This document shows positions 1 through 20,589 of a stretch of DNA of 40,236 bases, one piece after another (within the stretch, counting starts at the first letter, position 1; the number at the start of each line of letters is the position of its first letter). The DNA is from a virus. Below the pieces are notes generated by a model. That model worked only from the letters and a program-made list of their open reading frames with translations, made no database searches and was not told the DNA's origin. The translations under genes were made by a program, and so were the position numbers. Location: the IMG/VR virus record IMGVR_UViG_3300021962_000245, positions 1-40,236 of that record. The stretch is one strand, 5' to 3'.

Positions 1-48
1 GTTTACAAACGACCCAACCCCAGACATTCAAACACCCCCCGGCCTGAT
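1..48. other. Left end of the HNH-TerS gap (possible packaging-site region)
   Basis: Non-coding stretch downstream (minus strand) of the HNH gene. If the window is closed into a circle it joins 40180-40236, giving a gap of about 105 bp between the HNH gene and TerS. In cos phages of the HK97/lambda type the cohesive-end site lies just upstream of the small terminase gene, so this gap is the natural candidate. I see no cos consensus that would prove it. Confidence 0.35.
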
Positions 49-339
49 TCATGCCGACAAGTCTGTCGCTGTCTTTGCCTTGTGACACTCGACGCACAAC
101 CCTTGCAAGTTCGTCTCATCGTCTCGACCACCCTTGTGCAGCGGGATGATGTGATCTAGCTCTAGTGCCAACGTCACTAAGCCACGGTCCTTGCAGTGCA
201 CACACAGTGGGTTCGAGTAGAACCATCTAGCGCGGCGCTTCTGTAGCGTTGTCCCTGTGATCCGCTTATATGCGGGCACACCTGCTAGCGCTGGCTTGTG
301 TTGTGCTATCAGTGGCTTTGCGTTTGTGATCTTTGGCAT
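49..339 (-). CDS. HNH endonuclease, terminase-associated
   Basis: A 96-residue protein with a C-terminal HNH fold: CxxC (CVHC), then LDHIIPLHKGG, then NLQGLCVECHKAK carrying the second CxxC and the final histidine. This is the beta-beta-alpha metal nuclease arrangement of phage HNH proteins. Family knowledge: HNH proteins next to TerS (HK97 gp74 type) assist terminase cleavage of packaging sites. Its position directly upstream of TerS across the window ends fits that job. The ATG at 339 is chosen over a GTG at 453, because the extra 38 residues look non-conserved and a purine/GGCGGG stretch precedes this ATG. It is the third gene of the late transcript. Confidence 0.85.
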   Translation of the reverse strand: MPKITNAKPLIAQHKPALAGVPAYKRITGTTLQKRRARWFYSNPLCVHCKDRGLVTLALELDHIIPLHKGGRDDETNLQGLCVECHKAKTATDLSA

Positions 340-482
340 ATTCACGCGCCCGCCGCTTATATGCTGGGGGAGTTCCCGGCGATTGCTTGTCACCACGTCA
401 CGTGATGCGGCCCATGTGGGTGTGACCGCTTGCCCTGTGCGTTGACGCTGCACGCGCCGCCCTGTAGCCGTGGGATGTCTCC

Positions 483-728
483 CTAGTGCTGGCTGTGGTG
501 GGTGGATTGAGGATCATTTGGCAGATCAATTCGCACGAGGCCGTGTAATCGCTGCGTCTTGATTTCGTCGCCATCCAAAACAACTAGGCCCGAGTCGTCA
601 TGGAACACTATCTCGATGTAGCGAGCCTCTTCGTCCGCAACGACTACAAACCTGCGCTCTATGCCGTCCAGGTAAATCCTCGCGTTGGTGTACTCGTGAG
701 GCGCGTTCTCGTGGACGCTTAGGCGCAT
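483..728 (-). CDS. Small acidic phage protein, unknown function
   Basis: An 81-residue protein starting at ATG 728. The middle is beta-rich and acidic (ARYIEIVFHDDSGLVVLDGDEIKTQ), with no cysteines, membrane segment or recognised domain. It lies between the coiled-coil protein and the terminase-associated HNH gene on the late transcript, so it is probably expressed with packaging genes. Coding is supported by its position in the gene train and the protein-like composition; the ribosome-binding site is weak. I do not recognise the family. Confidence 0.6.
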   Translation of the reverse strand: MRLSVHENAPHEYTNARIYLDGIERRFVVVADEEARYIEIVFHDDSGLVVLDGDEIKTQRLHGLVRIDLPNDPQSTHHSQH

Positions 729-756
729 AGTCTGCGGGCGTTTTCGAGAATTGATA

Positions 757-793
757 ATCGCCGCGTAGCAATGCCAGAGGCGGCGATCCTCTT
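757..793 (+). terminator. Hairpin with trailing T-run (possible plus-strand terminator)
   Basis: An 8-bp perfect stem (ATCGCCGC at 757-764 pairing with GCGGCGAT at 780-787) is followed on the plus strand by CCTCTTTTTT. It lies in the gap between two minus-strand genes. As a plus-strand terminator it would block antisense transcription into the Q/late-promoter region; it may instead act as a processing hairpin on the minus transcript. Confidence 0.3.
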
Positions 794-795
794 TT

Positions 796-1035
796 TTACT
801 CAGCTGGGACTACAGGATCATCCACTGGCGCATCCGGCACCAGCGCATCCACAGCGGCGACACGCGCCTCAACAGCAGCAAGCGCGGAATTGATAGCGGC
901 CTCGTCTACACCGGCAGCGGCCAATGCTTCTTTAAGCGTCGCCACCTCGCCGACAAGCGCCGTGGTTTCCTTGCCGACTTTAGCGACAGCAGTGTCAAGG
1001 GCTTCCAGGCGAGCAACGATCAATTCGGTGGTCAT
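796..1035 (-). CDS. Small coiled-coil protein
   Basis: A 79-residue protein, almost entirely helical with heptad character (ARLEALDTAVAKVGKETT, then EVATLKEALAAAG), ending in an acidic proline-rich tail (VPDAPVDDPVVPAE). Family knowledge: short alpha-helical proteins of this style are common in siphophage late regions, with no assigned function. The ATG at 1035 is preceded by AAGAAAG. The same frame also has an ATG at 1101 that would add 22 residues (MTELRLWLHLLDRI...), so a longer form cannot be excluded. It is the first gene after the proposed late promoter and leader terminator. Confidence 0.6.
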   Translation of the reverse strand: MTTELIVARLEALDTAVAKVGKETTALVGEVATLKEALAAAGVDEAAINSALAAVEARVAAVDALVPDAPVDDPVVPAE

Positions 1036-1124
1036 GATGTGGGTTCTTTCTTGGTGGTTAATGCGGTCAAGCAGGTGCAGCCACAAGCGAAGTTCTGTCA
1101 TGGCGCGGCTTTCGTTTCGGAAAT

Positions 1125-1148
1125 GAAAAAGCCACCTTATGGGCGGCT
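1125..1148 (-). terminator. Rho-independent terminator in late leader (tR'-like)
   Basis: On the minus strand AGCCGCC and GGTGGCT pair around a 5-nt loop and run into TTTTT. It sits about 90 nt downstream of the proposed late promoter and ahead of the first late gene, the arrangement expected for a terminator overridden by a Q-type antiterminator. Confidence 0.65.
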
Positions 1149-1236
1149 TGTGTTTGTTTAGAGCATGCAGCAGCTTCTAGTGCGCTGCTCTCTTTTATGT
1201 TTGGCCGAGAACACCCCGGCTATATGGAGCGACGAA

Positions 1237-1265
1237 ACGATAGCACATATTCGGCGGCTAGGCAA
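1237..1265 (-). promoter_or_regulatory. Candidate late promoter
   Basis: On the minus strand TTGCCT (1265-1260) and TATCGT (1242-1237) are separated by 17 nt. It lies in the 1102-1437 gap, which I otherwise read as non-coding, between the Q-like gene and the late genes. That is where lambdoid phages place the Q-responsive promoter. The match to the consensus is moderate. Confidence 0.4.
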
Positions 1266-1437
1266 TCAGTGAATATTGCGCCACCAGCGCCTACATATTT
1301 CGTAGAAATGGAGCGCGCACATAACAAGAGACGCCGCCGCCATCGACTTGGTAAGGAATGAGGCCCCGCCAACATATTCCGCAGCCATCCACACGTTTGC
1401 AATCACCAGGTGCGCATGGAACATTAGCGTTGAATCA

Positions 1438-1944
1438 TTACTCATTCAAGGCTCCAATCTTTTCTGCACTGACCAACGCTGCCTCGTGTTTCGCCCTGCT
1501 GATCCATGCGTTCATCCAGTCAACCACAGGCATGTGTTCCTTTGCGAACTGCCTATCGATGCGTTTCTTTCCCGTGCCCCGGCATGTTTGGCATTCCGCT
1601 TTCTCAAGGACAGGTGTGCCCTCTATGACTCTGCTGCCTAGGCCATTGCAGTCGGTGCAAACGTCTGAGCGGGTGAATGCGAGCAGTGCCGATGCAATGT
1701 CCACGGCTGTACGCGGGTGCAGCTTAGGAAATTGAACCGTTGCCCTGTGCGCCATGCGGCCTGCACATTCGCGTGCGGCTTTGTTGTCGCCAAGCTCAAA
1801 GCGCAGCAATAGCGCCCCGAGGTAGTCAGTCTTAGACGCAAGGCCAACCGCGCCAATTACATCTAAATCACTGAAGTTTGTGCGCTCGATGCTGCGAAGG
1901 TTGCTGCTGCGGATCGCGCTTGCGTATCTTTCTACGATTTTCAA
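1438..1944 (-). CDS. Q-like late antiterminator with DnaJ-type zinc finger
   Basis: A 168-residue protein. The central part has two CxxCxGxG motifs (C96-C99 in CTDCNGLG and C118-C121 in CQTCRGTG) followed by a basic patch (KKRIDRQF). The N-terminal half is helical. Lambdoid Q-type antiterminators (the Antiterm family of phages such as 82 and 21) carry such a DnaJ-like zinc module. Context supports this: the gene ends just upstream of a candidate promoter and terminator that open the late operon. The start is TTG 1944, since an in-frame stop lies two codons upstream and no ATG is near. Family assignment is by motif and position only; other zinc-binding phage proteins remain possible. Confidence 0.6.
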   Translation of the reverse strand: MKIVERYASAIRSSNLRSIERTNFSDLDVIGAVGLASKTDYLGALLLRFELGDNKAARECAGRMAHRATVQFPKLHPRTAVDIASALLAFTRSDVCTDCNGLGSRVIEGTPVLEKAECQTCRGTGKKRIDRQFAKEHMPVVDWMNAWISRAKHEAALVSAEKIGALNE

Positions 1945-2014
1945 GTTTCACGACTTTCGCCCCGTAGTGCCCTGATGCGCCATCGATGCTTTGCCGACGC
2001 GCTTATCGAACGCG

Positions 2015-2044
2015 ATTTTACAACAGCATCAAAACTGATAGCAA
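2015..2044 (-). promoter_or_regulatory. Candidate promoter for the Q-like gene
   Basis: On the minus strand TTGCTA (2044-2039) and TAAAAT (2020-2015) are spaced 18 nt apart, about 70 nt upstream of the Q-like start codon. It lies in the divergent gap 1945-2132. Confidence 0.35.
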
Positions 2045-2072
2045 GAATCAATCAAACGAGTTGAAAAAGTGC

Positions 2073-2101
2073 TTGCATTGTCTTGAATGCGCATATACAG
2101 T
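2073..2101 (+). promoter_or_regulatory. Repeated accessory promoter, copy A
   Basis: TTGCAT (2073-2078), then 17 nt to TACAGT (2096-2101), overlapping TATACA at 2094-2099. The spacer holds TGAATGCGCATA. This block recurs almost unchanged at 2397 and 3150, each time upstream of a small plus-strand gene. Conservation continues past the -10 into a leader with a shared (G)CAGC motif. Confidence 0.7.
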
Positions 2102-2132
2102 ACATACATCGACAGCAAGCGGAGCAAGCAAC

Positions 2133-2288
2133 ATGACAGCGGTAAAAATCATCAAGCAAGACGACAACAGAACGGTCGGCATATTCATGCGCAACAGTGG
2201 TGAGTTCTGCGCAATGACATACGGCACGAGCAAAGACTTCAAAACGCTAAAAGGCGCTGAAAAATGGCTAGCAGCTCGCGGATATTGA
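2133..2288 (+). CDS. Small accessory protein
   Basis: A 51-residue protein, basic and compact (MTAVKIIKQDDNRTVGIFMR..., ending KGAEKWLAARGY). No recognised domain. The ATG at 2133 is preceded by GGAGCAAGCAAC, a Shine-Dalgarno-like leader also used by the next promoter-proximal genes. It is the first gene after promoter copy A. Being the leading gene of a promoter-repeat array that also holds an LPD29 protein suggests an accessory, host-directed role; that is inference. Confidence 0.65.
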   Translation: MTAVKIIKQDDNRTVGIFMRNSGEFCAMTYGTSKDFKTLKGAEKWLAARGY

Positions 2289-2410
2289 TTTACCAAGGCG
2301 GCGGCGGGTGGTTTGTGAAACTCGCCGGCGTTTTGGCTGGTGGATTCAAGATCAAAGAGCATGCAGAGCTTTTTGTGTCGGCCCTAAACAAAACCCTTGA
2401 CAACACGTGA
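2264..2410 (+). CDS. Small glycine-rich protein
   Basis: A 48-residue frame that overlaps the preceding gene by 25 nt and ends inside promoter copy B. It reads as a plausible small fold: ILIYQGGGGWFVKLAGVL, then GGFKIKEHAELFVSALNK. AAGGCG precedes the ATG. A glycine-flanked aromatic followed by two beta-like strands and a helix suggests a small alpha/beta domain. I do not recognise the family. Coding is inferred from translational coupling and composition. Confidence 0.55.
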   Translation: MASSSRILIYQGGGGWFVKLAGVLAGGFKIKEHAELFVSALNKTLDNT

Positions 2411-2425
2411 ATACGCATATACGTT
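2397..2425 (+). promoter_or_regulatory. Repeated accessory promoter, copy B
   Basis: TTGACA (2397-2402), then 17 nt to TACGTT (2420-2425), overlapping TATACG at 2418. The spacer includes TGAATACGCATA, matching copies A and C. The leader carries GGGCAGCAAGG, corresponding to GACAGCAAGCG in copy A. It lies at the 3' end of the preceding gene. Confidence 0.75.
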
Positions 2426-2472
2426 ACTACTCATGGGCAGCAAGGTGCTGGCCGCAAACAGGAGCAAACACA

Positions 2473-2679
2473 ATGGGAACTGAAACAGCAAAACCGGCTG
2501 ATCTCACAGTAGGCGACACAATTCTATTGAATGGACAAACTTACACAGTTGGCCGAGACACGGTGCAAACTGGTATTTTTGGCACCACTGTTCGTGGGCT
2601 GCGCATGGAGGCAATAGAGAGAGTACTGTTCCATAAGTTTCACAAAGGTGAATTTCTTGGATTTGTTTCTCAACCATGA
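2473..2679 (+). CDS. Small beta-rich accessory protein
   Basis: A 68-residue protein with a strand-turn-strand core (LTVGDTILLNGQTYTVG) and a second strand pair near the C-terminus (ERVLFHKFHKGEFLGFV). This looks like a small beta-barrel, but no family is assigned. GGAGCAAACACA precedes ATG 2473. It is the only gene after promoter copy B and is followed by a strong hairpin, so it seems to be a monocistronic accessory unit. Confidence 0.65.
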   Translation: MGTETAKPADLTVGDTILLNGQTYTVGRDTVQTGIFGTTVRGLRMEAIERVLFHKFHKGEFLGFVSQP

Positions 2680-2682
2680 ATA

Positions 2683-2707
2683 GGTTATTTCCAAAACGGA
2701 AATAACC
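2683..2707 (+). terminator. 10-bp perfect hairpin after the 68-residue protein gene
   Basis: GGTTATTTCC and GGAAATAACC pair perfectly around a 5-nt loop, directly after the stop codon. No T-run follows, so this may be an RNA-stability or processing hairpin, or an operator, rather than a classical terminator. The next gene has no promoter copy of its own. Confidence 0.45.
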
Positions 2708-2731
2708 ACTAAACAAACAAGAGCAAAGACC

Positions 2732-2950
2732 GTGACAAGTGCCGACTGCATTAATACCCACCAAGCCGCTCAATTTATGGCCCGAATGATTCCTTTTCTA
2801 GCCACCGGCTTGAGCTTGGAGGAAGCTGGGAAAGCCGTTTTGGACAGAGATCGTGAGCTGATGAATAGCACGCTGGCTGCTACTGAAGAAGGCGCGGCAA
2901 TTCGTCGCTCTCTGGCAGAAGGCGTTTACTCGTCTGTTAGGGCGCAATGA
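2732..2950 (+). CDS. Small helical protein
   Basis: A 72-residue protein starting at GTG 2732 with GAGCAAAG upstream. It is mostly helical (HQAAQFMARMIPFLATG, LEEAGKAVLDRDRELM, EEGAAIRRSLAEGVY). No domain is recognised. It ends in a 4-nt ATGA overlap with the next gene, so the two are translationally coupled. It probably depends on readthrough past the upstream hairpin. Confidence 0.65.
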   Translation: MTSADCINTHQAAQFMARMIPFLATGLSLEEAGKAVLDRDRELMNSTLAATEEGAAIRRSLAEGVYSSVRAQ

Positions 2951-3153
2951 CTGAACAAAAACAACACGGAGGCGCACGCCCTAACTCAGGCCCGAAGCCG
3001 AAATCGGCCACCGGTGAGCGCATGAAGAATCACGCCATGCGCTGGACTGATTCGGGCTGGTCCGATGTGCTGCTGATCGGCATGGATCGGGTGCGTGAGC
3101 TAGTCGCGGCAGAGGCAAAAAAAGCCCGCAAATTTGCCTCAAAAATGCCTTGA
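2947..3153 (+). CDS. GGARPNSG-motif small protein, possible DNA binding
   Basis: A 68-residue protein. The N-terminus HGGARPNSGPKPKSATGER is a flexible, basic, glycine/proline motif like the tails of phage DNA-binding proteins and of the TerS protein at the other end of this genome. The remainder is helical (WSDVLLIGMDRVRELVAAEA). The tail resembles an AT-hook, which suggests nucleic-acid binding; that is inference. It starts in an ATGA overlap, and promoter copy C overlaps its stop codon. Confidence 0.65.
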   Translation: MTEQKQHGGARPNSGPKPKSATGERMKNHAMRWTDSGWSDVLLIGMDRVRELVAAEAKKARKFASKMP

Positions 3154-3178
3154 CATTGCTTGATTAAGCATATACATT
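3150..3178 (+). promoter_or_regulatory. Repeated accessory promoter, copy C
   Basis: TTGACA (3150-3155), then 17 nt to TACATT (3173-3178), overlapping TATACA at 3171. The spacer has TTGATTAAGCATA, aligned with copies A and B. The leader contains ATGGACAGCGCAAC and runs about 70 nt to the LPD29 gene. Confidence 0.75.
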
Positions 3179-3247
3179 AATACCTATGGACAGCGCAACG
3201 CTTCCACCGCCCAGGCGGCACCTGGAATCCTGATAGGAGCAAAAATC

Positions 3248-3667
3248 ATGGCATGGGTATCACAAGAAGACAAAGCAAAAATTGCAGCCGAACTTAAAAA
3301 GGTCGTGCCTAGTGGCTGGAAATATAGCCTTTCTGTTCGCGACAAAATGACTATTTGCATGACAATAAAGTCAGCGCCTTTAGATCTTATCCGCGCCTTC
3401 AAAGCAAGCGAATATTTCAATCCTGAAACGGCCACAGATATCGAAGTAAGCAATTATTATTGCAGGTCACAAATTGCCGACGAATGTGTCGCTGATGTTT
3501 TTGAGTCCATTTTGAGGGCGCTAAACACCGACAACTACGACCGCAGCGACACAATGACAGACTATTTCGATGTAGGGCACTACGTTGATTTACGCATAGG
3601 CAAATGGGATAAGCCATTCATTGTCACCGGTGCGCTTGCAAAACAGAAAGAAAATGCTTCCACCTGA
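3248..3667 (+). CDS. LPD29-domain protein
   Basis: A 139-residue stand-alone protein. The N-terminal half has a lysine-rich helix then a strand (KIAAELKKVVPSGWKYSLSV). The C-terminal half carries NYDRSDTMTDYFDVGHYVDL then GKWDKPF, which I recognise as the signature of Large Polyvalent Protein-associated Domain 29, usually found in big conjugative-element and phage polyproteins. Its biochemical role is not established; polyvalent proteins are thought to protect incoming DNA from host defences. GGAGCAAAAATC precedes ATG 3248, and the gene has promoter copy C to itself. Confidence 0.75.
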   Translation: MAWVSQEDKAKIAAELKKVVPSGWKYSLSVRDKMTICMTIKSAPLDLIRAFKASEYFNPETATDIEVSNYYCRSQIADECVADVFESILRALNTDNYDRSDTMTDYFDVGHYVDLRIGKWDKPFIVTGALAKQKENAST

Positions 3668-3815
3668 CTCTGTAATCCACTTGAGAGCCCCAGCCGCCAC
3701 CAAGGCGGCGTGGGTGCGTCAAAGCCAAGCGGCGGGTATGAAGCTATCAGACTGGATAGTGATGCGCGTAGCGAGTGCGCTACAACAGCCAGAGAGCGGA
3801 AGGCCGCAGGGGTGA
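3654..3815 (+). CDS. Ribbon-helix-helix-like small protein
   Basis: A 53-residue protein. A strand (SVIHLRAPAATKAAWVRQ) is followed by SQAAGMKLSDWIVMRVASAL, the pattern of a MobC/CopG-type ribbon-helix-helix domain: a short strand, then two helices with a turn between. Such proteins bind DNA as dimers and often autoregulate. The ATG at 3654 overlaps the LPD29 gene end by 14 nt and is preceded by AGAAAGAAA. It is a candidate regulator of the accessory promoters or binder of the nearby direct repeats; both roles are inference. Confidence 0.6.
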   Translation: MLPPDSVIHLRAPAATKAAWVRQSQAAGMKLSDWIVMRVASALQQPESGRPQG

Positions 3816-3883
3816 GCATTGCCAGACGCGAGGCTTGAGAACGGTTGCGGGCGCTCGGGGGCGCAGGGTGTTGACCAACTCCA

Positions 3884-3958
3884 TCCCCCTGTCATGGGAT
3901 TTTTGGGCTAACCCCCTGTAGTGGAATTTTTGGGCTTTTGGGGTGTAGTGGAATTTTT
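3884..3958. repeat. Three imperfect direct repeats (period about 26-30 bp)
   Basis: The units are CCCCCTGTCATGGGATTTTTGG, CCCCCTGTAGTGGAATTTTTGG and GGGGTGTAGTGGAATTTTT; the third continues as TTGATCC beyond the transposon at 6373. They occupy the convergent gap between the plus accessory genes (ending 3815) and the minus early operon (ending 6383). They could be iterons, protein-binding sites or a decayed terminator array; no function can be assigned from sequence. Confidence 0.6.
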
Positions 3959-3979
3959 GGTAGTGTCTCAGTTTGAAAT

Positions 3980-4222
3980 CTAGACTAGCGACCCACGCCG
4001 AAGTGCAGCCTTCGCTAATGTGGCCGCTGCGTCCAAACTTGCTTTGATCTCGGTGATGCGGTGATCAACCTCTATCTCAGTCATCAAGTGCTCGGACGCG
4101 CACACGGCATCATCGCCACTGCCTGCCCCGAAAGGCTGAAAGTTCAAGATTACGAGTGGGCCTGGTTTCCCCCATCCGCCGCTGATGTGTTTACAACTGA
4201 ACTTCCCCATGTTTTCTTTCAT
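3980..4222 (-). CDS. Small transposon protein coupled to the transposase
   Basis: An 80-residue protein whose ATG overlaps the transposase stop as ATGA, so it is translationally coupled. The N-terminal part has MGKFSCKHISGGWGKPGPL and the C-terminal part is helical (HRITEIKASLDAAATLAKAAL). It ends 3 bp inside the left inverted repeat. I do not recognise the fold. Its fixed position after the transposase suggests a transposition accessory role or a passenger. An alternative start is the internal Met at residue 5. Confidence 0.55.
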   Translation of the reverse strand: MKENMGKFSCKHISGGWGKPGPLVILNFQPFGAGSGDDAVCASEHLMTEIEVDHRITEIKASLDAAATLAKAALRRGSLV

Positions 4223-5109
4223 GCACTTGCTCCTTGCGATTGACGTGACTTATATGATCCGCGCTTCTTGGCTTCTGGCGCTGCAACCAAGTTGCAGATT
4301 TCTTCAATCGTCCACACATGATCTGCAACGCCCGCTTCCATGGCTGGTGTGACGCGCAAGGTTTTGTGGATTTTGGCGAAGTTGTAAAACATGAAATGCA
4401 GGCTCACTGCGTGCATGTGGTTCTCGACCTTCTTTGAGAAAGCATTTGTCAGGCGAGTGAATCGGCGCATGTGCATCCGCATGGTGAGGTTCTGGCGCTC
4501 CACGTAGGACGTGCTGACGTGTTCCGCGTCAGGGTAGCCGGTGACAACATCCACACGTGAGCCGGTGTAGCTGCTTGGGCTGTACTTGCGTGATGCTTCG
4601 CGGGCCGGTGTGTCGCCATACAGCTTCACAAGCTGGGCAAAGTCGATATGCCCATTGAAGGCATCGGACACGGCTTCCAAGTATGCCTTGAGCCCATCCG
4701 TGGTGAGTTGCACGCGGTGTGCGAGACGCTCCGACAAGTCGGTGATGAAGTGGTGCGCGGACTCAGCGCCACGGGTTCCAACGTGCCAGCACGGCACCAA
4801 CTTCGTATCAGCATCAATCGCCGTCCATGTGTGCACGTCGCCATAACCAAACACGCCCTTAAGTTCTTCGGGGACGTTCTTTTCTTTGCTGCCAACAAAC
4901 GACCAAATTTCATCGCATTGAACGCGCTTGCAATTGAGCTTACGTAGGGTTTTGTCTTGAAACTCAGCGCAGGCCGCTCCTGTATCAATCAGCAGCTTCG
5001 TGACCGTGTTGATGCTCACGTCAGCAATGCGCGACGTGGCACGCATGGACATTCCCTCAACCAGCAGATTAATAATCTGGGCGCGCTTTTCGATGGGGAG
5101 TCGGTTCAT
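4219..5109 (-). CDS. IS1-family DDE transposase
   Basis: A 296-residue single-frame transposase. The N-terminus has a helix-turn-helix (RATSRIADVSINTVTKLLID). Catalytic-type residues are seen in QCDEIWSFVG (first D), LTTDGLKAYLEAV (second D) and STSYVERQNLTMRM (E). This is the layout of the long, non-frameshifted IS1 subgroup, unlike classical IS1 InsA/InsB'. AGGAAG lies ahead of ATG 5109 and a near-consensus promoter lies about 30 bp further upstream. Length and motifs are complete, so it looks functional. Confidence 0.9.
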   Translation of the reverse strand: MNRLPIEKRAQIINLLVEGMSMRATSRIADVSINTVTKLLIDTGAACAEFQDKTLRKLNCKRVQCDEIWSFVGSKEKNVPEELKGVFGYGDVHTWTAIDADTKLVPCWHVGTRGAESAHHFITDLSERLAHRVQLTTDGLKAYLEAVSDAFNGHIDFAQLVKLYGDTPAREASRKYSPSSYTGSRVDVVTGYPDAEHVSTSYVERQNLTMRMHMRRFTRLTNAFSKKVENHMHAVSLHFMFYNFAKIHKTLRVTPAMEAGVADHVWTIEEICNLVAAPEAKKRGSYKSRQSQGASA

Positions 5110-5136
5110 TGTCAGTTCTTCCTAAATTTGAACTGA

Positions 5137-5165
5137 ATTATATGCTTGTGTAAATCAATCGTCAA
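5137..5165 (-). promoter_or_regulatory. Transposase promoter
   Basis: On the minus strand TTGACG (5165-5160), a 17-nt spacer and a perfect TATAAT (5142-5137), ending 27 nt upstream of the transposase ATG. CAGTTC and GAACTG form a short inverted repeat across the leader (5112-5135), a possible operator or attenuator that could limit transposase synthesis. Confidence 0.8.
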
Positions 5166-5269
5166 CAGACTATCGCCACTCATCAATGTGAATGAAATCG
5201 CCTTGCAGCTGGGCATCAAATGCTTTCGGCGGCTGTCTCCCGACAGCCTTAAGAAGAACTAGACGAAGC

Positions 5270-5296
5270 AAGGCCCCATATGTAAAATGGGGCCTT
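5270..5296 (-). terminator. Hairpin inside the transposon
   Basis: AAGGCCCCA and TGGGGCCTT form a 9-bp perfect stem around a 9-nt loop. No long T-run follows on either strand. It separates the wHTH passenger gene and a putative mini-ORF from the transposase promoter, so it probably insulates the two units. Confidence 0.45.
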
Positions 5297-5307
5297 GGCG
5301 ACTCATC

Positions 5308-5385
5308 TTATCTTCTGATAAGCGCCGCGAGTTCAGCAGTTCTCAATTCAATGAGATGCCACTCCAGCAGGTCTTTTTGACCCAT
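5308..5385 (-). CDS. Possible 25-residue mini-ORF
   Basis: A short frame (MGQKDLLEWHLIELRTAE...) with AAAGGAA eight bases before its ATG, followed 11 nt later by the internal hairpin. It lies in the 330-bp gap between the wHTH passenger and the transposase, where I see no other gene. Coding is uncertain and rests on the ribosome-binding site and amphipathic composition alone. Confidence 0.25.
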   Translation of the reverse strand: MGQKDLLEWHLIELRTAELAALIRR

Positions 5386-5440
5386 GGGGTTCCTTTCAAG
5401 AGTTGCGCCCCCTGTCAGGGACTAGTTGAACACCGAAGCC

Positions 5441-5935
5441 TCAACTTTGCGAATTGCTGTTCGCGCTGTTTGGGGCTTCATCTTTTTTGGCAGCTATTTG
5501 ATAGCGGCCATAGGAAGCGCTGACAAGATAGCCTTTCTCCTTGAGATTCCCAAGTGTCGCTCGCACGGAGCCAAGCGTTGAAGGCAAAGAAAGGCGTTCG
5601 TTTACGTCGTTTAGCGTTTCTTCAACAGAGCGCGTCTTGCCATCTTTCATCAGTTCAATAATCGCTGGAGAGAGCGAGCCTTTTGGGTTTTTAATTGGCG
5701 CAGCATTCTTTTTTTCCTCGACAGGCCGCATTGACTCGGAATTAAGACTGCCAAGTTCTTGTTGGACACCTGTATTTGTCTCCGATGAGCGAAGAAATTG
5801 CTCATAGGCAGTAGGCTTCATCATTGCAAGCGTCCTACGCAATGTATCGACTTGAATTTGAAGCTCGGAAACAGTCGCTTTCGCTTTTGCAAGCGCATGC
5901 TGTTTTTCTGCAAGAAGTTTGTTTAGCTGATCCAT
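5441..5935 (-). CDS. Transposon passenger: coiled-coil plus winged-helix protein
   Basis: A 164-residue protein. The first ~40 residues form a coiled coil (DQLNKLLAEKQHALAKAKA..., then LQIQVDTLRRTL), giving likely dimerisation. After a polar linker, residues ~85-145 read as a winged helix: SPAIIELMKDG, SVEETLNDVNERL, GSVRATLGNLKEKGYLV, SYGRYQIAA. This resembles small DNA-binding regulators with an N-terminal oligomerisation helix. The ATG at 5935 is chosen because a promoter ends 6 nt before it, implying a leaderless mRNA; frames further upstream would start inside that promoter. It may regulate the transposon or host genes; unproven. Confidence 0.7.
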   Translation of the reverse strand: MDQLNKLLAEKQHALAKAKATVSELQIQVDTLRRTLAMMKPTAYEQFLRSSETNTGVQQELGSLNSESMRPVEEKKNAAPIKNPKGSLSPAIIELMKDGKTRSVEETLNDVNERLSLPSTLGSVRATLGNLKEKGYLVSASYGRYQIAAKKDEAPNSANSNSQS

Positions 5936-5941
5936 TTGGCA

Positions 5942-5970
5942 ATCATAATTAAACGCAAGAATGATTGCAA
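5942..5970 (-). promoter_or_regulatory. Promoter of the wHTH passenger (leaderless)
   Basis: On the minus strand TTGCAA (5970-5965), a 17-nt spacer and TATGAT (5947-5942). The ATG begins 7 nt after the -10, about where transcription should start, and no Shine-Dalgarno sequence is present. Confidence 0.6.
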
Positions 5971-6030
5971 GCATTATTGACAATTGCTACTTTGCGCGGG
6001 TTTTGCGTAGGGGGCTTGAGCAATGATCGC

Positions 6031-6052
6031 AAAAAAGCCCGCGTGGCGGGCC
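6031..6052 (-). terminator. Rho-independent terminator after KGG-motif gene
   Basis: On the minus strand GCCCGC and GCGGGC form a GC-rich stem with a short loop and run into TTTTTT. It lies just downstream of the KGG-motif gene and upstream of the wHTH promoter, so these passengers are separate transcription units. Confidence 0.75.
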
Positions 6053-6080
6053 TTGGTTGTTGCGCTTGTTGTCTTCGCGT

Positions 6081-6290
6081 CTAAGGTTTGCTCCACCTAG
6101 AGGTGGCTGCCTTTGTGGCAATGTCTTTGCGATCTTCTGGTGATAGCTTGGATGCTCTTACAGCTCCACCCTTGATGCCGCCTTTTCGGCTGTTTTCTTG
6201 ACGCGCAGTCAACTCAGGCGGAATTGGCTCGCTGCCTGTAGCTTGCCCGACAATGAATTTTGCTAGCTGATTTAGGTCTTTTTTTGGCAT
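6081..6290 (-). CDS. Transposon passenger: KGG-motif small protein
   Basis: A 69-residue protein. The C-terminal half is ARQENSRKGGIKGGAVRA, SKLSPEDRKDIATKAA, then SRW. I recognise this RKGG-x-KGG...LSPE-R-x-IA-KAA-xRW pattern from many small uncharacterised bacterial proteins often found near mobile elements. It is basic and helical, so nucleic-acid binding is plausible but unproven. The ATG at 6290 is preferred to a GTG at 6311. It is the outermost passenger, close to the right inverted repeat. Confidence 0.65.
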   Translation of the reverse strand: MPKKDLNQLAKFIVGQATGSEPIPPELTARQENSRKGGIKGGAVRASKLSPEDRKDIATKAATSRWSKP

Positions 6291-6382
6291 GCCATGAGTG
6301 TAGATCGTCACCGCCAGCTTGTGCGCAGAGCGTCAGCCTGTGACATTCAAACTGAGACACTACCGAATTTTTTGATCCAATC

Positions 6383-6688
6383 CTACGCATCGCCTTGTTT
6401 TGCGCTAAAAACTGGAAGCTCAGTAATCATCTCAACATCTGGATAGCTGAGCGTTATAGTAAGTTCAGATACCACCGGCTTAGATTTCACATTCACACGC
6501 GGTTCATCAATGCGGCCAAATGAAACAAACTGCGGCTGAACGTCAAAATACATTTGAAAGCTCACCAACCCGTCAATCTCGCGCCCATCCTCAGTGAATA
6601 GCCTTGTTTGAGTTCTACGCGGCTGTTTCTTCCTCGGCTTGCCTGCCTTCGTAAGAATTGGTTTTGGCTTGAGTAGTAGTAGCTTCAT
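6383..6688 (-). CDS. Phage protein with basic N-terminus, unknown
   Basis: A 101-residue protein. The first 35 residues are strongly basic (KPKPILTKAGKPRKKQPRRT), followed by a beta-rich part (GLVSFQMYFDVQPQFVSFG, VSELTITLSYPDVEMI). GAGGAGAAC immediately precedes the ATG, a strong ribosome-binding site. It is the last gene of the leftward early operon, and its stop codon lies only 11 bp from the transposon's right target duplication. No family recognised. Confidence 0.65.
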   Translation of the reverse strand: MKLLLLKPKPILTKAGKPRKKQPRRTQTRLFTEDGREIDGLVSFQMYFDVQPQFVSFGRIDEPRVNVKSKPVVSELTITLSYPDVEMITELPVFSAKQGDA

Positions 6689-6698
6689 TTTGTTCTCC

Positions 6699-6995
6699 TC
6701 ATTTGACCACCAACATCCCGCGCTCAATCATCCTCACAATCGTGGTGATGTAAGCGTTTTTCCAAAACTCCCGCCGTTCCTCCCTGGTCATCTTTGTGCC
6801 CTGGTCTAGCTCACGGTGGCAGTTAACGCAAAGCGCCGCGCAGCGGGCATCGCTTACCTTTAGGCCCATGCCTTTCAACTCATTTTGGTGTGCGGCCTGT
6901 GATCCGGCCATTGATCCGCATGCGCCGCATTCCTGACTTGCAACAGCCCGGCGTAGCTTCTCACTTTGAAACTTAGGCGTCTTCAGGTAGTTCAT
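6699..6995 (-). CDS. HNH-like zinc nuclease (DUF1364/Ref-like)
   Basis: A 98-residue protein with CGACG, then AAHQNELKGMGLKVSDARCAAL and CVNCHRELDQG. The CxxC - H - CxxCH arrangement with GMG-x-K-x-SD matches the phage HNH-type family that includes DUF1364 and Ref-like endonucleases, which act on recombination or replication intermediates. The start at ATG 6995 overlaps the preceding gene by 23 nt. It is near the end of the early operon with other nucleases (VRR-NUC). Confidence 0.7.
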   Translation of the reverse strand: MNYLKTPKFQSEKLRRAVASQECGACGSMAGSQAAHQNELKGMGLKVSDARCAALCVNCHRELDQGTKMTREERREFWKNAYITTIVRMIERGMLVVK

Positions 6996-7245
6996 GGGCA
7001 TCAACGGCAGAAGGCTTTTTTGTAATGTAACCAAGAACAGACTTTATTTTTATGGTGAGCTTCGGGCCTGAACTTGCGGCACCGCCCGACTTGCTGTGAA
7101 ATGTTTTTGCAAACCCGTTTACTTCAAACCAATCCCGAGCATTTTTTATTTTGTTAGTTGGCATTCCTCTTTTGGCGAGTAAGACAATTTGGTTTTCGTT
7201 CACCCCAAGTGCCAAAGCAATATCTTTCGTCGTAGGTTTACCCAT
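6973..7245 (-). CDS. Small DNA-binding HTH protein
   Basis: A 90-residue protein. The N-terminus reads as a helix-turn-helix of the Nu1/excisionase kind: TTKDIALALGVNENQIVLLAKRG, then PTNKIKNARDWFEVNGF. The C-terminal half is basic and unstructured. AAAAGGGA lies upstream of ATG 7245. A regulatory or accessory DNA-binding role is likely; the specific partner is unknown. It overlaps the HNH-like gene downstream. Confidence 0.65.
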   Translation of the reverse strand: MGKPTTKDIALALGVNENQIVLLAKRGMPTNKIKNARDWFEVNGFAKTFHSKSGGAASSGPKLTIKIKSVLGYITKKPSAVDAHELPEDA

Positions 7246-7281
7246 GAATGTCCCTTTTATCTTTTTGAAACCTTGACTGGC

Positions 7282-7746
7282 TCAGGTAGTGCATGGCGCT
7301 TTTCCAATCGCAGTTAACCACTTTGAATATGGTTCGCGTATGTTTTTGTGGAAGATGTCCGCCGCAATTTGATGATGATCTAGCTCAGCACGGCTATCAA
7401 TTCCGCACTCCTCAAGAATGAACAGTTTCGCTTCTGATGGAGTTGAAACACCAAGCCATTCCATAAAGTCTTTGCTCTGGCACCACATACCCGCCAGCTT
7501 TGCCAGCGGCCCGCCTTTGAGTTTTTCGGCTTTTGCTGGCTCTGGCTGCTTTGGTAGCTCATCCTCGCCAATTTCAACCAGCACGCAGGCGAGGCGCTGC
7601 CCTGCAGTCTTACCCTTCGCAACCGTCATACGCTTGAAGGCTGCAAGCTCTTCAGGGTCTGATAACCAAAAAGTGACCTTTGCCCCGCCGTTATGTGTTT
7701 CCGACCAGCCCGCCAACATGACCTCGCCGCTAAATGTGGGATTCAT
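7282..7746 (-). CDS. Conserved phage protein, unknown function
   Basis: A 154-residue protein. A beta-rich N-terminus (MLAGWSETHNGGAKVTFWLSDPEELAAFKRMT, with GKTAGQRLACVLVEIGED) is followed by a helical C-terminus with GGPLAKLAGMWCQSKDFMEWL. I recognise the AGWSET...GAKVTFWL...TAGQR...GGxLAKLAGMWC pattern as a recurrent uncharacterised siphophage early protein. It starts in an ATGA overlap with the gene before it, so it is coupled within the replication operon. Confidence 0.7.
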   Translation of the reverse strand: MNPTFSGEVMLAGWSETHNGGAKVTFWLSDPEELAAFKRMTVAKGKTAGQRLACVLVEIGEDELPKQPEPAKAEKLKGGPLAKLAGMWCQSKDFMEWLGVSTPSEAKLFILEECGIDSRAELDHHQIAADIFHKNIREPYSKWLTAIGKAPCTT

Positions 7747-7904
7747 TTTTTCAGCGCCGCAATAGCCTCGTCGCGCTCGAGCCGCATGCGCTTGCAGTTT
7801 GTGCGCAATGCCTCAATTTCCACAGCTCTTTCCGCCAACTCTCGATCACGCTCGGCGATCATTGATCCGGCGGCCATCAGGATGGATTCCACTGTGTCAG
7901 TCAT
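7743..7904 (-). CDS. Small coiled-coil protein
   Basis: A 53-residue helical protein with heptad repeats (MIAERDRELAERAVEIEALR, then KRMRLERDEAIAALKK). GGAGTGATCAA precedes the ATG at 7904 and decides this start over an upstream frame extension. It ends in an ATGA overlap. Likely an oligomerising accessory protein; function unknown. Confidence 0.65.
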   Translation of the reverse strand: MTDTVESILMAAGSMIAERDRELAERAVEIEALRTNCKRMRLERDEAIAALKK

Positions 7905-7908
7905 TTGA

Positions 7909-8094
7909 TCACTCCATTGAGTAGCCACACTTTTTGCATTTAAGGCATGGGACAAGTTGCCCGGGGCCTCCTGGGCTCATCGTAACTACGTGACCTCCAG
8001 AAAAGTCAGGACGCCCCGTGTACGTCTGGCGGATGGCAACTCCAGGCTGCATTTCGCCGTCACAGCCGCGTCGCCTGCATACACTGCTGATCAC
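7909..8094 (-). CDS. Zinc-ribbon small protein
   Basis: A 61-residue protein with cysteines near the N-terminus (VCRRRGCDGEMQPG) and CLKCKKCGYS at the C-terminus, framing PDFSGGHVVTMSPGGPGQLV. This matches a recurrent phage zinc-ribbon family with the TMSPGGPG core. It starts at GTG 8094 in a GTGA overlap with the VRR-NUC gene, eight bases after GGGAGG. Nucleic-acid or protein binding is plausible. Confidence 0.7.
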   Translation of the reverse strand: MISSVCRRRGCDGEMQPGVAIRQTYTGRPDFSGGHVVTMSPGGPGQLVPCLKCKKCGYSME

Positions 8095-9276: not shown

Positions 9277-10020
9277 TCAAGGCTTTGCGCTGTTAAAAAG
9301 CGAGTCCATCTCCGCCACCTTCTCTGACCTGGACGCACCTGAGCGAAGAACCGAATTCACTTTGTTCGTGAGCTTCATGCTTGCAACGCTCATGACAACA
9401 TCGGCCAGGCTGTATTTCTGGTCAAGGGCAACAACTGACTTACAAAGCGCGAGAACGTTCAGGCCGAGTTTTCTGTCAATTAAAAGTTTGATTCCATAAG
9501 ATCCAATCAAACCAAATAGCTCGTCATACTGCTGGCGCAGCTTCCCAGGTAGGTGCCCATTAGCGAGCCCGATCTCAAGCCATCCCTTGCCGCCAATTGG
9601 GATTGACGTTGTATTCACCATCGTGAAGGCTTCATCACGGTCAATGTCGCTAACAATGCACTCGATTGTTTCTTGGCCGAGAGAGCGACAAGCAGCTAGA
9701 CGACGGTTACCGTCGATAACTTTCCTATCCTGAGTTATCAAAATCGGATACATCAGCCCGCGAACAGAAATTTCATGCATAAGCCGCATAAGGCTTTTGC
9801 CCTCTTTGGTTCTCGATGCGGGGTTGTATGGCGTATGACTTAGTGTGTGGATTGGAACTACCAGAATCATTCGGCTCGATATCTCTACATCAAGACCAAC
9901 TTTGTCAAAAAAATCGATCTCAATGCGTGTTGAATCGAACCACCGCTTTTGCTCGTCATAGGCAATGCTTGTTGCTGAATCCAGCATCATTTCTCCCTTT
10001 AATTCCTGGACAGATTTCAT
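9277..10020 (-). CDS. ParB-like nuclease/DNA-binding protein
   Basis: A 247-residue protein. Near residues 55-120 it has a ParB N-terminal-type domain: VPIHTLSHTPYNPASR, LMRLMHEISVRGLMYPILIT, DRKVIDGNRRLAACRSLGQETIECIV. The DGxRRLxA motif is the ParB/Srx nucleotide-binding box. The C-terminal half is helical without an obvious ParB HTH. No ParA partner exists in the window, so partitioning is unlikely; phage ParB-like proteins act as regulators or DNA-processing factors. The start at ATG 10020 overlaps the upstream stop as ATGA. Confidence 0.8.
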   Translation of the reverse strand: MKSVQELKGEMMLDSATSIAYDEQKRWFDSTRIEIDFFDKVGLDVEISSRMILVVPIHTLSHTPYNPASRTKEGKSLMRLMHEISVRGLMYPILITQDRKVIDGNRRLAACRSLGQETIECIVSDIDRDEAFTMVNTTSIPIGGKGWLEIGLANGHLPGKLRQQYDELFGLIGSYGIKLLIDRKLGLNVLALCKSVVALDQKYSLADVVMSVASMKLTNKVNSVLRSGASRSEKVAEMDSLFNSAKP

Positions 10021-10220
10021 GCCGCCTCGCTTTCGCGCCACCACTCGATCACTGGACGGTTGTTGATGCCCAGCGCCCATGTGCTTGACCTTGGTGTGTA
10101 GCCGTCAACGAAACCTCGCGTTTCCTCGTCAACAACTTCCGGCATTGCGCGTGGAATAAAAGAACGCCTATCAAACCAGGCGGCCCGCTCGCCTTTAATG
10201 AAGCTTGTCCGATAGCTCAC
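10017..10220 (-). CDS. Small protein between DnaB and ParB-like genes
   Basis: A 67-residue protein, rich in aromatic and charged residues (RAAWFDRRSFIPRAMPEVVDEE, TWALGINNRPVIEWW). GTG start in a GTGA overlap with the helicase stop, and an ATGA overlap into the ParB-like gene. Tight coupling on both sides argues it is real. No family recognised. Confidence 0.65.
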   Translation of the reverse strand: MSYRTSFIKGERAAWFDRRSFIPRAMPEVVDEETRGFVDGYTPRSSTWALGINNRPVIEWWRESEAA

Positions 10221-14527: not shown

Positions 14528-14731
14528 TCATTTTCCAGATGAAGACCGTGGCAAATATGGAAAAAAAGCACGCACTGTTTCTATGCCTGGATTTTTTGTT
14601 TCACCTGAACGTATCTTCAAAAGAGTAGTGAACGGGACATTTGATTTTGCTGCAATAGAACGCAGCTGATAAGCCGCTAACTTCTGCAGATTTTCGCGGA
14701 TCAAAGATGCTTGTGGTATTTGTGTGGCCAT
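14528..14731 (-). CDS. Cro-like small HTH regulator
   Basis: A 67-residue protein. LIRENLQKLAAYQLRSIAAK, then NVPFTTLLKIRSGETKNPGIETVRAFF is an XRE/Cro-type helix-turn-helix (LRSIAAKSNVPFTTLLKIRSG) with no peptidase or dimerisation domain. It is transcribed from a promoter whose start site falls at its ATG, so the mRNA is probably leaderless, like lambda cI from PRM. Matching palindromes in its own promoter and in the divergent promoter are its likely operators. Being first on the replication transcript suggests a Cro-like balance function rather than lysogenic repression. Confidence 0.72.
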   Translation of the reverse strand: MATQIPQASLIRENLQKLAAYQLRSIAAKSNVPFTTLLKIRSGETKNPGIETVRAFFPYLPRSSSGK

Positions 14732-14738
14732 GCGCCGC

Positions 14739-14767
14739 ATCATACCGAACGCGGTTTTGCGCGTCAA
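14739..14767 (-). promoter_or_regulatory. Leftward early promoter with internal operator
   Basis: On the minus strand TTGACG (14767-14762), a 17-nt spacer and TATGAT (14744-14739). The spacer and -10 contain ACCGCGTTCGGT (14755-14744), a perfect ACCG-N4-CGGT palindrome. The regulator ATG begins 7 nt after the -10. It is strikingly similar base by base to the rightward promoter. Confidence 0.8.
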
Positions 14768-14833
14768 CCGCAAAGTAAACTTATTTTTTCCAGGGCCATG
14801 CAACATTATTTTTTGCTGTCGCCCCAAATTCGG

Positions 14834-14862
14834 TTGACACTCAAAACCGCTTCCGGTACATT
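14834..14862 (+). promoter_or_regulatory. Rightward early promoter with internal operator
   Basis: TTGACA (14834-14839), a 17-nt spacer and TACATT (14857-14862). The spacer contains CAAAACCGCTTCCGG, nearly identical to CAAAACCGCGTTCGG in the leftward promoter; the palindrome ACCGCTTCCGGT is at 14846-14857. The two promoters are about 65 bp apart, facing away from each other. Confidence 0.82.
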
Positions 14863-14904
14863 CTTTACATGCGCTGCAAACGCAGCAAACCAGGGAGAAG
14901 CCAA

Positions 14905-15168
14905 ATGCAAGAGACAACCAGGCAACTTAACCCGCACGAAGCTCCCGTCGGGTTTTTCGCAGTCCTGAAAAGTGAAGCCAAGCCAGCAGATGGCTCAAAC
15001 ATCTGCCGCGCTTGCGACTGGCGTCCTGAGTGCAATAACCAAGAGACAGATTTACTGGCATTTGGCCATCGCTGCATGGATCACCCAGTAATTGCGCTCA
15101 GAGACGGAAAGAGTTACGAGCGGGCTGATGGCTGCTCAGTGCTGTTCAAACGCGAGGTGTCGGCATGA
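14905..15168 (+). CDS. Cysteine-containing early protein
   Basis: An 87-residue protein. NICRACDWRPECN, then FGHRCMDHPVIA and RADGCSVLFKR: four to five conserved-looking cysteines, likely zinc-binding. I recognise CRxCDWRPEC...RCM...RADGCSVVF as a recurrent siphophage early protein of unknown function. AGGGAGAAG precedes ATG 14905 and gives a ~36-nt leader. It is the first gene of the rightward operon. Confidence 0.75.
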   Translation: MQETTRQLNPHEAPVGFFAVLKSEAKPADGSNICRACDWRPECNNQETDLLAFGHRCMDHPVIALRDGKSYERADGCSVLFKREVSA

Positions 15169-17132: not shown

Positions 17133-17780
17133 ATGAGCGTAGCCGTAATGATCTTGGGTGAAAGCGGGAGCGGGAAAAGCACCAGCCTGCGCAACTTTGA
17201 CCCATCAAAAACACTGCTAATCCAGTGCATCAAAAAGCCGTTGCCTTTTAAGTCAAAGGGGTGGGCACTTCGCACAAAAGACAACGGCGGGAATGTCTAC
17301 CAGTCTTACGACCCAGCCGCGATTGAAAAGGCTATGCGTGCATCGACTCATGAGGTTGTGATAATCGACGATTACCAAGCTGTTTTGATCAACGAGCTTC
17401 TCTCACGCTCGGCAGAGCGCGGTTACGAAAAGTTCACTGACATCGCAAAAAGCGCATGGAACATTTTTAACGCTGCTGGCTCGCTTGCTGCGCATCGCAG
17501 GGTGTATTTGATCGCCCATACACAGACAGACGACATGGGGCAGATAAGGATGAAGACTGTTGGGAAGATGGTCGATTCGATGATCGTTCCTGAGGGGTAC
17601 TTTACTATCGTTCTCCGAACTGAAGTGATCAACGGCAACTACATATTCCACACGCAGACAACCGGCAAGGATTGCTGCAAAAGCCCCATTGGCATGTTTG
17701 ACGGCCAGCATATTGAAAACGACTTGGCCGTAGTCGATGCTGCGATCACCAGTTTCTATGAGATCGGAGTTCCAGCGTGA
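17133..17780 (+). CDS. Sak4-type RecA-like ATPase (recombinase)
   Basis: A 215-residue P-loop ATPase. Walker A GESGSGKST (residues 9-17) and Walker B EVVIIDDYQ (~74-82), then a sensor-like VYLIAHTQ. Size and motifs match the phage Sak4/AAA_24 nucleotide-binding protein, a minimal RecA-like single-strand annealing recombinase. An SSB-like gene lies nearby, the usual functional partner. AAGGGTGAAAC precedes ATG 17133. Its stop overlaps the GTG of an HNH gene that separates it from the SSB gene. Confidence 0.85.
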   Translation: MSVAVMILGESGSGKSTSLRNFDPSKTLLIQCIKKPLPFKSKGWALRTKDNGGNVYQSYDPAAIEKAMRASTHEVVIIDDYQAVLINELLSRSAERGYEKFTDIAKSAWNIFNAAGSLAAHRRVYLIAHTQTDDMGQIRMKTVGKMVDSMIVPEGYFTIVLRTEVINGNYIFHTQTTGKDCCKSPIGMFDGQHIENDLAVVDAAITSFYEIGVPA

Positions 17781-20194: not shown

Positions 20195-20353
20195 ATGCAA
20201 ACACTACGCACACAACTGAAGTTAGCACGGATCAAGCTGATTAAGCGCCGCGTCGCTCAGTCATGGTCAAAGCGGAGCAAGCCGAGCGACAAAGAATTCT
20301 GTGCTGCGTCGGCCTTGCAGGTGATCGAGGCGAAGGAAAGGGGGCTTTTATGA
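20195..20353 (+). CDS. Small basic protein, 52 residues
   Basis: A 52-residue protein, strongly basic at the start (LKLARIKLIKRRVAQSWSKR) and helical at the end (CAASALQVIEAKERGLL). AAAGGAC precedes ATG 20195; its TGA overlaps the ATG of the Lar-like gene. Nucleic-acid binding is plausible from charge. Confidence 0.6.
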   Translation: MQTLRTQLKLARIKLIKRRVAQSWSKRSKPSDKEFCAASALQVIEAKERGLL

Positions 20354-20589
20354 CTGAAGAACTCTTGAGCTGCCCTTTCTGCGGAAAGACAGATGCGCTC
20401 CGCGTAGTCGCTGCTTCGCAGGAATGGGACGAGGATTACTTTGGTCCGTACCCCCACAGCGAATCATGGTCCGTGGTGTGCGATGCAAGCCATCCCGGCG
20501 GCCCGGGCGGGTGCGGCGCACAAGCTGGGGCCAGCTCAAAGGGGTCTGCCGCAGCGATTGAGTCATGGAACACAAGGAGCAAAGAATGA
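20350..20589 (+). CDS. Lar-like restriction-alleviation zinc-ribbon protein
   Basis: A 79-residue protein. LLSCPFCGKTDALRVV at the start, SWSVVCDASHPGGPGGCGAQ in the middle and AAIESWNTR at the end match the Lar (restriction alleviation) family: CPFCG, a second cysteine cluster, and the A..AWNRR-like C-terminus. Rac-prophage Lar modulates host type I restriction to protect DNA. ATGA-coupled on both sides. Confidence 0.75.
   Translation: MTEELLSCPFCGKTDALRVVAASQEWDEDYFGPYPHSESWSVVCDASHPGGPGGCGAQAGASSKGSAAAIESWNTRSKE

Follow-up and report, generated by a model that had tools for sequence, protein, structure and literature searches.

What the repeated sequences in the small-gene array of a bacterial virus are for is the question raised by the DNA analyzed here, a window of 40,236 bp comprising IMG/VR virus record IMGVR_UViG_3300021962_000245. 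Near-identical promoter-like blocks at 2073, 2397, and 3150 each precede a different set of small genes. The comparison with related contigs suggests that the locus is probably an accessory-gene array of exchangeable cassettes, each headed by one copy of a regulatory block, which would act both as a promoter and as a homology seam, and carrying between one and three small genes. The array belongs to a small phage group in which the repeated promoter-like block lies at points of exchange, and in which two close members, with flanks 98% and 95% identical, differ by one clean cassette.

Three Copies of a Promoter-Like Block

The blocks comprise the following features.

2073..2132, plus strand: block 1, with -35 TTGCAT at 2073-2078 and a type I leader with GGAGCAA
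2084-2098, plus strand: spacer element of block 1, TGAAT..GCATATAC, with a putative -10 TACAGT at 2096-2101
2397..2472, plus strand: block 2, with -35 TTGACA, TGAAT..GCATATAC, a putative -10 TACGTT, and a type II leader with GGAGCAA
3150..3247, plus strand: block 3, with -35 TTGACA, TGATT..GCATATAC, a predicted -10 TACATT at 3173-3178, and a long type III leader with TGATAGGAGCAA

All three blocks match TTGACA-N5-TGANTNNGCATATAC-NNTA. Allowing at most three mismatches, TTGACANNNNNTGANTNNGCATATACNNTA is found in the window at exactly these three positions, all on the plus strand, compared with 0.00 matches in 100 dinucleotide-preserving shuffles; blocks 2 and 3 fit without a mismatch, and block 1 has three because its -35 is TTGCAT. 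The window contains the element GCATATAC three times, always on the plus strand and confined to the blocks, and copies of the element elsewhere in the window, at up to three mismatches, are scattered. The common layout consists of an A-rich stretch, the -35 TTGACA, TGA[A/T]TnnGCATATAC, a predicted -10 of the form TACNNT, and a leader that ends in GGAGCAA before the start codon, which is ATG in all three blocks. The original prediction, which had placed three recurring blocks with GGAGCAA-type leaders here, holds on both counts. The GCAGC leader motif that it added stands in a looser form: the blocks share G(A/G)CAGC, and the literal GCAGC is present in block 2 only.

Several other readings of the block were considered and set aside. 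A riboswitch or other structured leader found no support, with no Rfam match in 1-8000 and fold z-scores near zero (-0.29 to 1.40), indicating that the leaders are not unusually structured. Inspection by eye shows only weak dyad symmetry in the spacer element, against a palindromic operator, and a spacing that misfits a sigma-32 promoter. A leader peptide in the block 3 leader would be read from too few copies.

Conservation of the Block in Related Contigs

A pattern scan of viral contigs recovered the block in L003, L027, L036, L041, and L049/L052, the last two labels denoting one contig. Together with the window, 14 copies are present in six IMG/VR contigs (11 of them outside the window), and searching the five other records whole revealed zero copies beyond the small-gene array. 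Most remaining matches of the scan were AT-rich and coding-like (AAGATTGGGA..GAGTGAGCATATACA) or scattered singles with no leader, and were rejected on context; the only match in a genome contig, Clostridia contig L055, has neither leader nor start and was taken as chance. No near relatives of the window were found in phage (INPHARED) or plasmid records. Blocks of the block 1 type recur in L027, L036, L049, and L003, and the type III leader of block 3 was recovered from L027, L036, and L052 alone among the scanned contigs. Leader-only copies, with a GGAGCAA-type start and no promoter block, occur at L049 1044-1078, L027 reverse complement 1623-1647, and L052 583-603, where they precede second or third genes and recall the SAS of cluster K mycobacteriophages.

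In the alignment of the 14 copies, TTG, TGA-T, GCATAT-C, and TA are invariant and the intervening bases vary. A 17-nt spacer sets the putative -10 at TACNNT, in which the three bases most important to sigma-70 are kept in all but one copy. TGA-T and GCAT sit in the spacer and are not needed for core promoter recognition. When the scan was run without TGANT, it hit about 30 unrelated places, nearly all lacking TGANT, which every copy in this phage group possesses. The stop codon that it contains may account for part of the constraint on TGA-T, although block 1 copies keep TGA-T with no same-strand gene ending there. Taken together, the conserved spacer element suggests the binding site of a shared regulator.

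Exchange of Cargo at the Blocks

The cleanest single exchange is the one between the window and L027. Their identity is 98.3% over 1113-2120, ends within the block 1 leader, and returns at 2396, 1 bp before the -35 of block 2, to continue at 95%; between these seams, the window carries a DUF1391 gene and a 48-aa gene, whereas L027 carries three unrelated genes. L003 has an inserted 80-aa gene that separates its block 1 leader from the DUF1391 gene, and homology to the window ends at 2422 in block 2, with different cargo beyond. The homology of L049/L052 to the window extends across block 3 and breaks off at the ATG, and in L036, block 1 is joined directly to the middle of the gene at 2732-2950 via an internal Met. 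Over all pairs, of the internal ends of homology stretches of at least 200 bp, 12/20 fall within blocks of both contigs and 16/20 within a block of at least one, with blocks occupying 8-32% of the arrays; the pairs are non-independent, which makes these counts a description rather than a strict test. Cargo is thus present or absent between the same neighbors in related phages and varies between conserved blocks. Aligning related phages had been named beforehand as a check on the proposal of a duplicated cassette promoter with interchangeable cargo, and the alignments support the proposal.

The blocks also overlap the ends of the genes before them. At eight of the nine interior blocks, the preceding gene runs into the block and stops at the TGA of TTGACA or of the spacer element. 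Two unrelated proteins, encoded up to window 2397-2411 and L027 reverse complement 2045-2059, both end in LDNT because the last codons of each are encoded by block 2.

These observations bear on a less demanding explanation, in which a promoter was duplicated in one lineage and genes then turned over by chance, so that the blocks are merely young, their spacer uninformative, and the joints simply tolerated by intergenic DNA. The contigs are few and all apparently related, and mosaic phage genomes commonly have their joints at gene boundaries. However, positions adjoining the invariant ones have diverged freely, and youth alone therefore fails to explain the invariants; the seams at 2120, 2396, and 2422 are inside the block, not merely intergenic, and interior blocks overlap coding sequence. 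Chance turnover is accordingly rated unlikely.

Exchange of cassettes at a repeated sequence could also mean that the block is the target of a site-specific recombinase, as in an integron-like cassette site, instead of a promoter. Against this, every copy reads as -35, 17-nt spacer, -10, leader, and ribosome-binding site, inspection by eye reveals no strong inverted-repeat site, the leaders lack unusual structure, and neither the window nor three of the four other records tested contains a tyrosine integrase. Such a target is very improbable.

The preferred reading, a promoter that doubles as a homology seam, leads to a simple model. Host sigma-70 RNA polymerase would transcribe the genes behind each block, independently of and opposite to the phage replication and late operons, and one DNA-binding protein would control every block through the common spacer element. 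The blocks could serve as short homology seams because they are near-identical, and recombination between them, presumably homologous, would swap, insert, or remove cargo, with new cargo always keeping a promoter. Upstream cargo can end inside a block because the block provides stop codons in two frames.

Several points weigh against this interpretation. A generic sigma-70 scan flags block 3 alone (10/12) and misses blocks 1 and 2 because of their weak -10 hexamers, and the promoter role is read from base sequence. One L027 block copy carries GCATATCC. No terminator was found at gene boundaries or seams, and no intrinsic terminator lies clearly between cassettes; the two plus-strand terminator sites in the array (3314-3329 and 3478-3491) are both within the gene at 3248-3667. 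The block family is small, at six contigs whose pairs are not independent. Finally, the proposed regulators are candidates: the distant contig G003 carries blocks but lacks the ribbon-helix-helix (RHH) gene at 3654-3815, and the protein encoded at 2947-3153 matches no library family.

Cargo Genes

The seven cargo genes of the window are as follows.

2133..2288, plus strand: cargo gene 1, 51 aa, DUF1391 / phrog_751 (Pfam 3.7e-12, above cut-off; PHROGs 2.1e-11)
2264..2410, plus strand: cargo gene 2, 48 aa, 83% in L003, TGA stop at offset 11 of block 2
2473..2679, plus strand: cargo gene 3, 68 aa, phrog_3623, of unknown function (PHROGs 2.8e-6), 100% in L027
2732..2950, plus strand: cargo gene 4, 72 aa, no family
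2947..3153, plus strand: cargo gene 5, 68 aa, TGA stop at offset 1, inside TTGACA of block 3
3248..3667, plus strand: cargo gene 6, 139 aa, phrog_10415, of unknown function (PHROGs 9.4e-38)
3654..3815, plus strand: cargo gene 7, 53 aa, RHH protein (phmmer 2e-10, profile 1.5e-14; fold search)

Blocks 1 and 3 precede two genes each, as predicted, but block 2 precedes three (2473-2679, 2732-2950, and 2947-3153) in place of the expected one or two. The cargo genes look real, judged by the codon changes in two of them: the DUF1391 gene, which has a 94% match in L003, shows 10 synonymous and 3 nonsynonymous changes relative to it, and for the gene at 2947-3153 the counts are 20 and 12. DUF1391 is a curated family that, among 14 control genomes, was found in E. 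coli only, and its presence corrects the earlier statement that all genes here except an LPD29 gene and an RHH-like gene lack families. The LPD29 assignment, considered for 3248-3667, had to be dropped, as a search for PF18847 found nothing anywhere in the window at a cut-off as loose as E<=10. The protein encoded at 3248-3667 has no convincing PDB match to its predicted fold, and its family, phrog_10415, has members in 62 phage records, among which Klebsiella and Sinorhizobium phages at least 140 kb long are numerous. The RHH-like assignment is borne out by sequence, profile, and fold searches of 3654-3815. Other cargo in the relatives yielded no convincing family match, and no essential phage function was recognized among the cargo.

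Candidate Regulators and Counter-Defense

The best candidates for a shared regulator are two small proteins of the array, encoded at 2947-3153 and 3654-3815. The gene at 2947-3153 is found in five of the six block-bearing records, including G003, the sixth being the truncated fragment G005. Its product combines a basic GARPNSGPKPK arm with a strand-helix-helix-like core, and the L041 relative is likewise strand-helix-helix-like by eye; read in this way, the protein may bind DNA. The RHH gene is present in G000, G001, and G004, with the cargo before it differing between G000/G001 and G004 (window/L027 versus L052), a placement consistent with a regulator of the aca kind. A CI-like repressor at 14528-14917 was rejected as the regulator, being present in the window and L027 only.

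The predicted model of the RHH protein is nearest to the N-terminal part of AcrIF25, followed by TacA, the Rv0298 antitoxin, AmrZ, Arc, and CopG, with E-values that are weak, as expected at 53 residues; the sequence search aligns it to AcrIF25 residues 7-47 at 1.5e-14. AcrIF25 removes Cas7 from Cascade through its C-terminal domain (PMC13131331). This domain is missing in 3654-3815, and the likeness to AcrIF25 is therefore no evidence for anti-CRISPR activity. A Nitrosomonas stercoris plasmid protein (149 aa; L137 3989-4438) has the same N-terminal RHH module with a different C-terminal part, which suggests that the AcrIF25-type N-terminal RHH domain is a reusable module. The spacer element is not clearly present beside RHH relatives on Nitrosomonas plasmids.

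A more specific explanation, compatible with exchangeable cassettes, is that the array is a counter-defense island, in which early anti-defense cassettes would be shut off through their blocks by a small downstream DNA-binding protein, as by an Aca. The RHH gene closes the last cassette behind differing upstream cargo, its product has the N-terminal domain of AcrIF25 as its nearest solved relative, and a Lar-like restriction alleviation gene is found elsewhere in the phage. Archaeal viruses, moreover, place diverse anti-defense genes under shared strong promoters (PMC11065993). On the other side, searches of Pfam, PHROGs, and PADLOC matched no cargo gene to a known anti-defense family (the best PADLOC match is weak and Cas6b-like, E 0.002), the Cas7-removing domain of AcrIF25 is absent (PMC13131331), and known Acas are described as helix-turn-helix (HTH) proteins (PMC7648647), not RHH proteins. 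An anti-defense function of the cargo is plausible, lysogen fitness being another candidate role; the island as a whole is possible rather than probable.

More tentative still is a combined proposal, in which a single block of 30-50 bp would drive transcription, serve as common operator, supply stop codons, and act as recombination seam, allowing counter-defense genes to be exchanged in one step and properly regulated from the outset under an in-array RHH-type repressor that tracks the block. If true, the array would be a bacterial counterpart of archaeal early anti-defense regulons and would explain concretely how phages acquire morons. The gain and swapping of accessory genes by phages has been called mysterious, and a study of Mu-like phages searched without success for a recombination target common to them (PMC4378225). 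The block sequence also provides a search handle for unknown, possibly counter-defense, genes, an end that regulatory-sequence searches have served in archaeal viruses (PMC11065993).

Genomic Setting

The array is a run of plus-strand genes with replication genes of the minus strand on one side and, on the other, Q, from which it diverges.

1438..1944, minus strand: Q-like antitermination gene, left neighbor of the array (phrog_127 1.3e-4, phrog_6060 1.6e-4)

The Q-like gene precedes the array at the same place in L003, L027, L036, and L049. The minus strand further encodes a DnaB-like helicase, a replication gene, and a ParB-like gene, with the large terminase at the right end; Sak4-like (17133-17780), SSB-like, Gam-like, and Lar-like genes follow farther right on the plus strand. 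The array is carried by a tailed phage that is probably temperate. One relative, G004, has a tyrosine integrase, and the phage group is therefore at least partly temperate.

The suggestion that the array is an anti-defense or moron island gains only indirect support from its plus-strand genes, set against minus-strand replication and late genes, from their lack of recognized essential functions, and from the AcrIF25-related last gene. Any anti-defense role of the cargo is putative, and no classical moron-type flanking terminators stand out.

Other features of the window touch the array less directly. The ParB-like gene (9277-10080) lies in a record that yielded no tyrosine integrase, which makes plasmid-like maintenance possible. 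The Lar-like gene (20263-20589, plus strand) belongs to a recognized anti-restriction family and lies away from the array. Just past the array, 3885-3960 contains three 27-bp tandem repeats with a TGTAGTGGAATTTTTGG core, which could be binding sites; a similar pair occurs at L052 1754-1803. Where L027 has only about 0.4 kb, the window has about 3.4 kb (3905-7348), and this segment contains the gene of an IS1-family transposase (4219-5109).

Comparison with Known Systems

The array resembles the early anti-defense regulons of archaeal viruses (SIRV2 and others), in which diverse, unrelated small accessory genes each follow a highly conserved regulatory sequence with a near-identical strong promoter and a proposed shared Aca-like repressor (PMC11065993). 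The archaeal promoters are of the TATA/BRE type, whereas the block is bacterial and sigma-70-like. In the archaeal regulons, early transcription and some anti-defense functions have been demonstrated experimentally; the array is known from its sequence, in which exchange at the blocks is directly seen.

Lambdoid morons likewise are accessory genes with their own promoter (putative here) among core genes (PMC4378225), and like them the cargo comes and goes between the same neighbors. The array differs in its tandem near-identical promoters, multi-gene cargo, and exchange seam, and in having no clear flanking terminators. In acr-aca loci, variable small genes lie beside a conserved gene for a small DNA-binding protein, and the gene sets differ between related phages (PMC7648647). 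The array has the corresponding arrangement, with a conserved, predicted RHH protein downstream of variable cargo, but no known anti-CRISPR gene, only the likeness to the AcrIF25 N-terminal domain; its protein is RHH rather than HTH, and it has three promoter blocks.

For recombination, the nearest systems are the PeSLs of T4-type phages and the SAS/ESAS of cluster K mycobacteriophages. As summarized in PMC4503421 (after Arbiol et al. 2010 and Comeau et al. 2014), PeSLs are repeated early-promoter motifs between genes that mediate the shuffling of small genes. The array matches them in having a repeated, putative promoter motif that separates small genes and coincides with recombination points. 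In that summary, PeSLs include a stem-loop/terminator, of which no equivalent stands out in the array; they belong to T4-type myoviruses, whereas the phage here is lambdoid-like and has Q-like, Sak4-like, and terminase genes, and their sequence is also different from that of the block. SAS/ESAS are short conserved sequences that cover the ribosome-binding sites of numerous small genes, and roughly half carry an additional upstream extension (PMC3203893). The coexistence of full blocks and leader-only copies in L049, L027, and L052 parallels this. The ESAS extension consists of 17-bp inverted repeats and SAS are genome-wide, whereas the extension here is promoter-like and confined to one array. 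By eye, the block 3 leader TGATAGGAGCAA is similar to the SAS/ESAS consensus GGGATAGGAGCCC over GATAGGAGC only.
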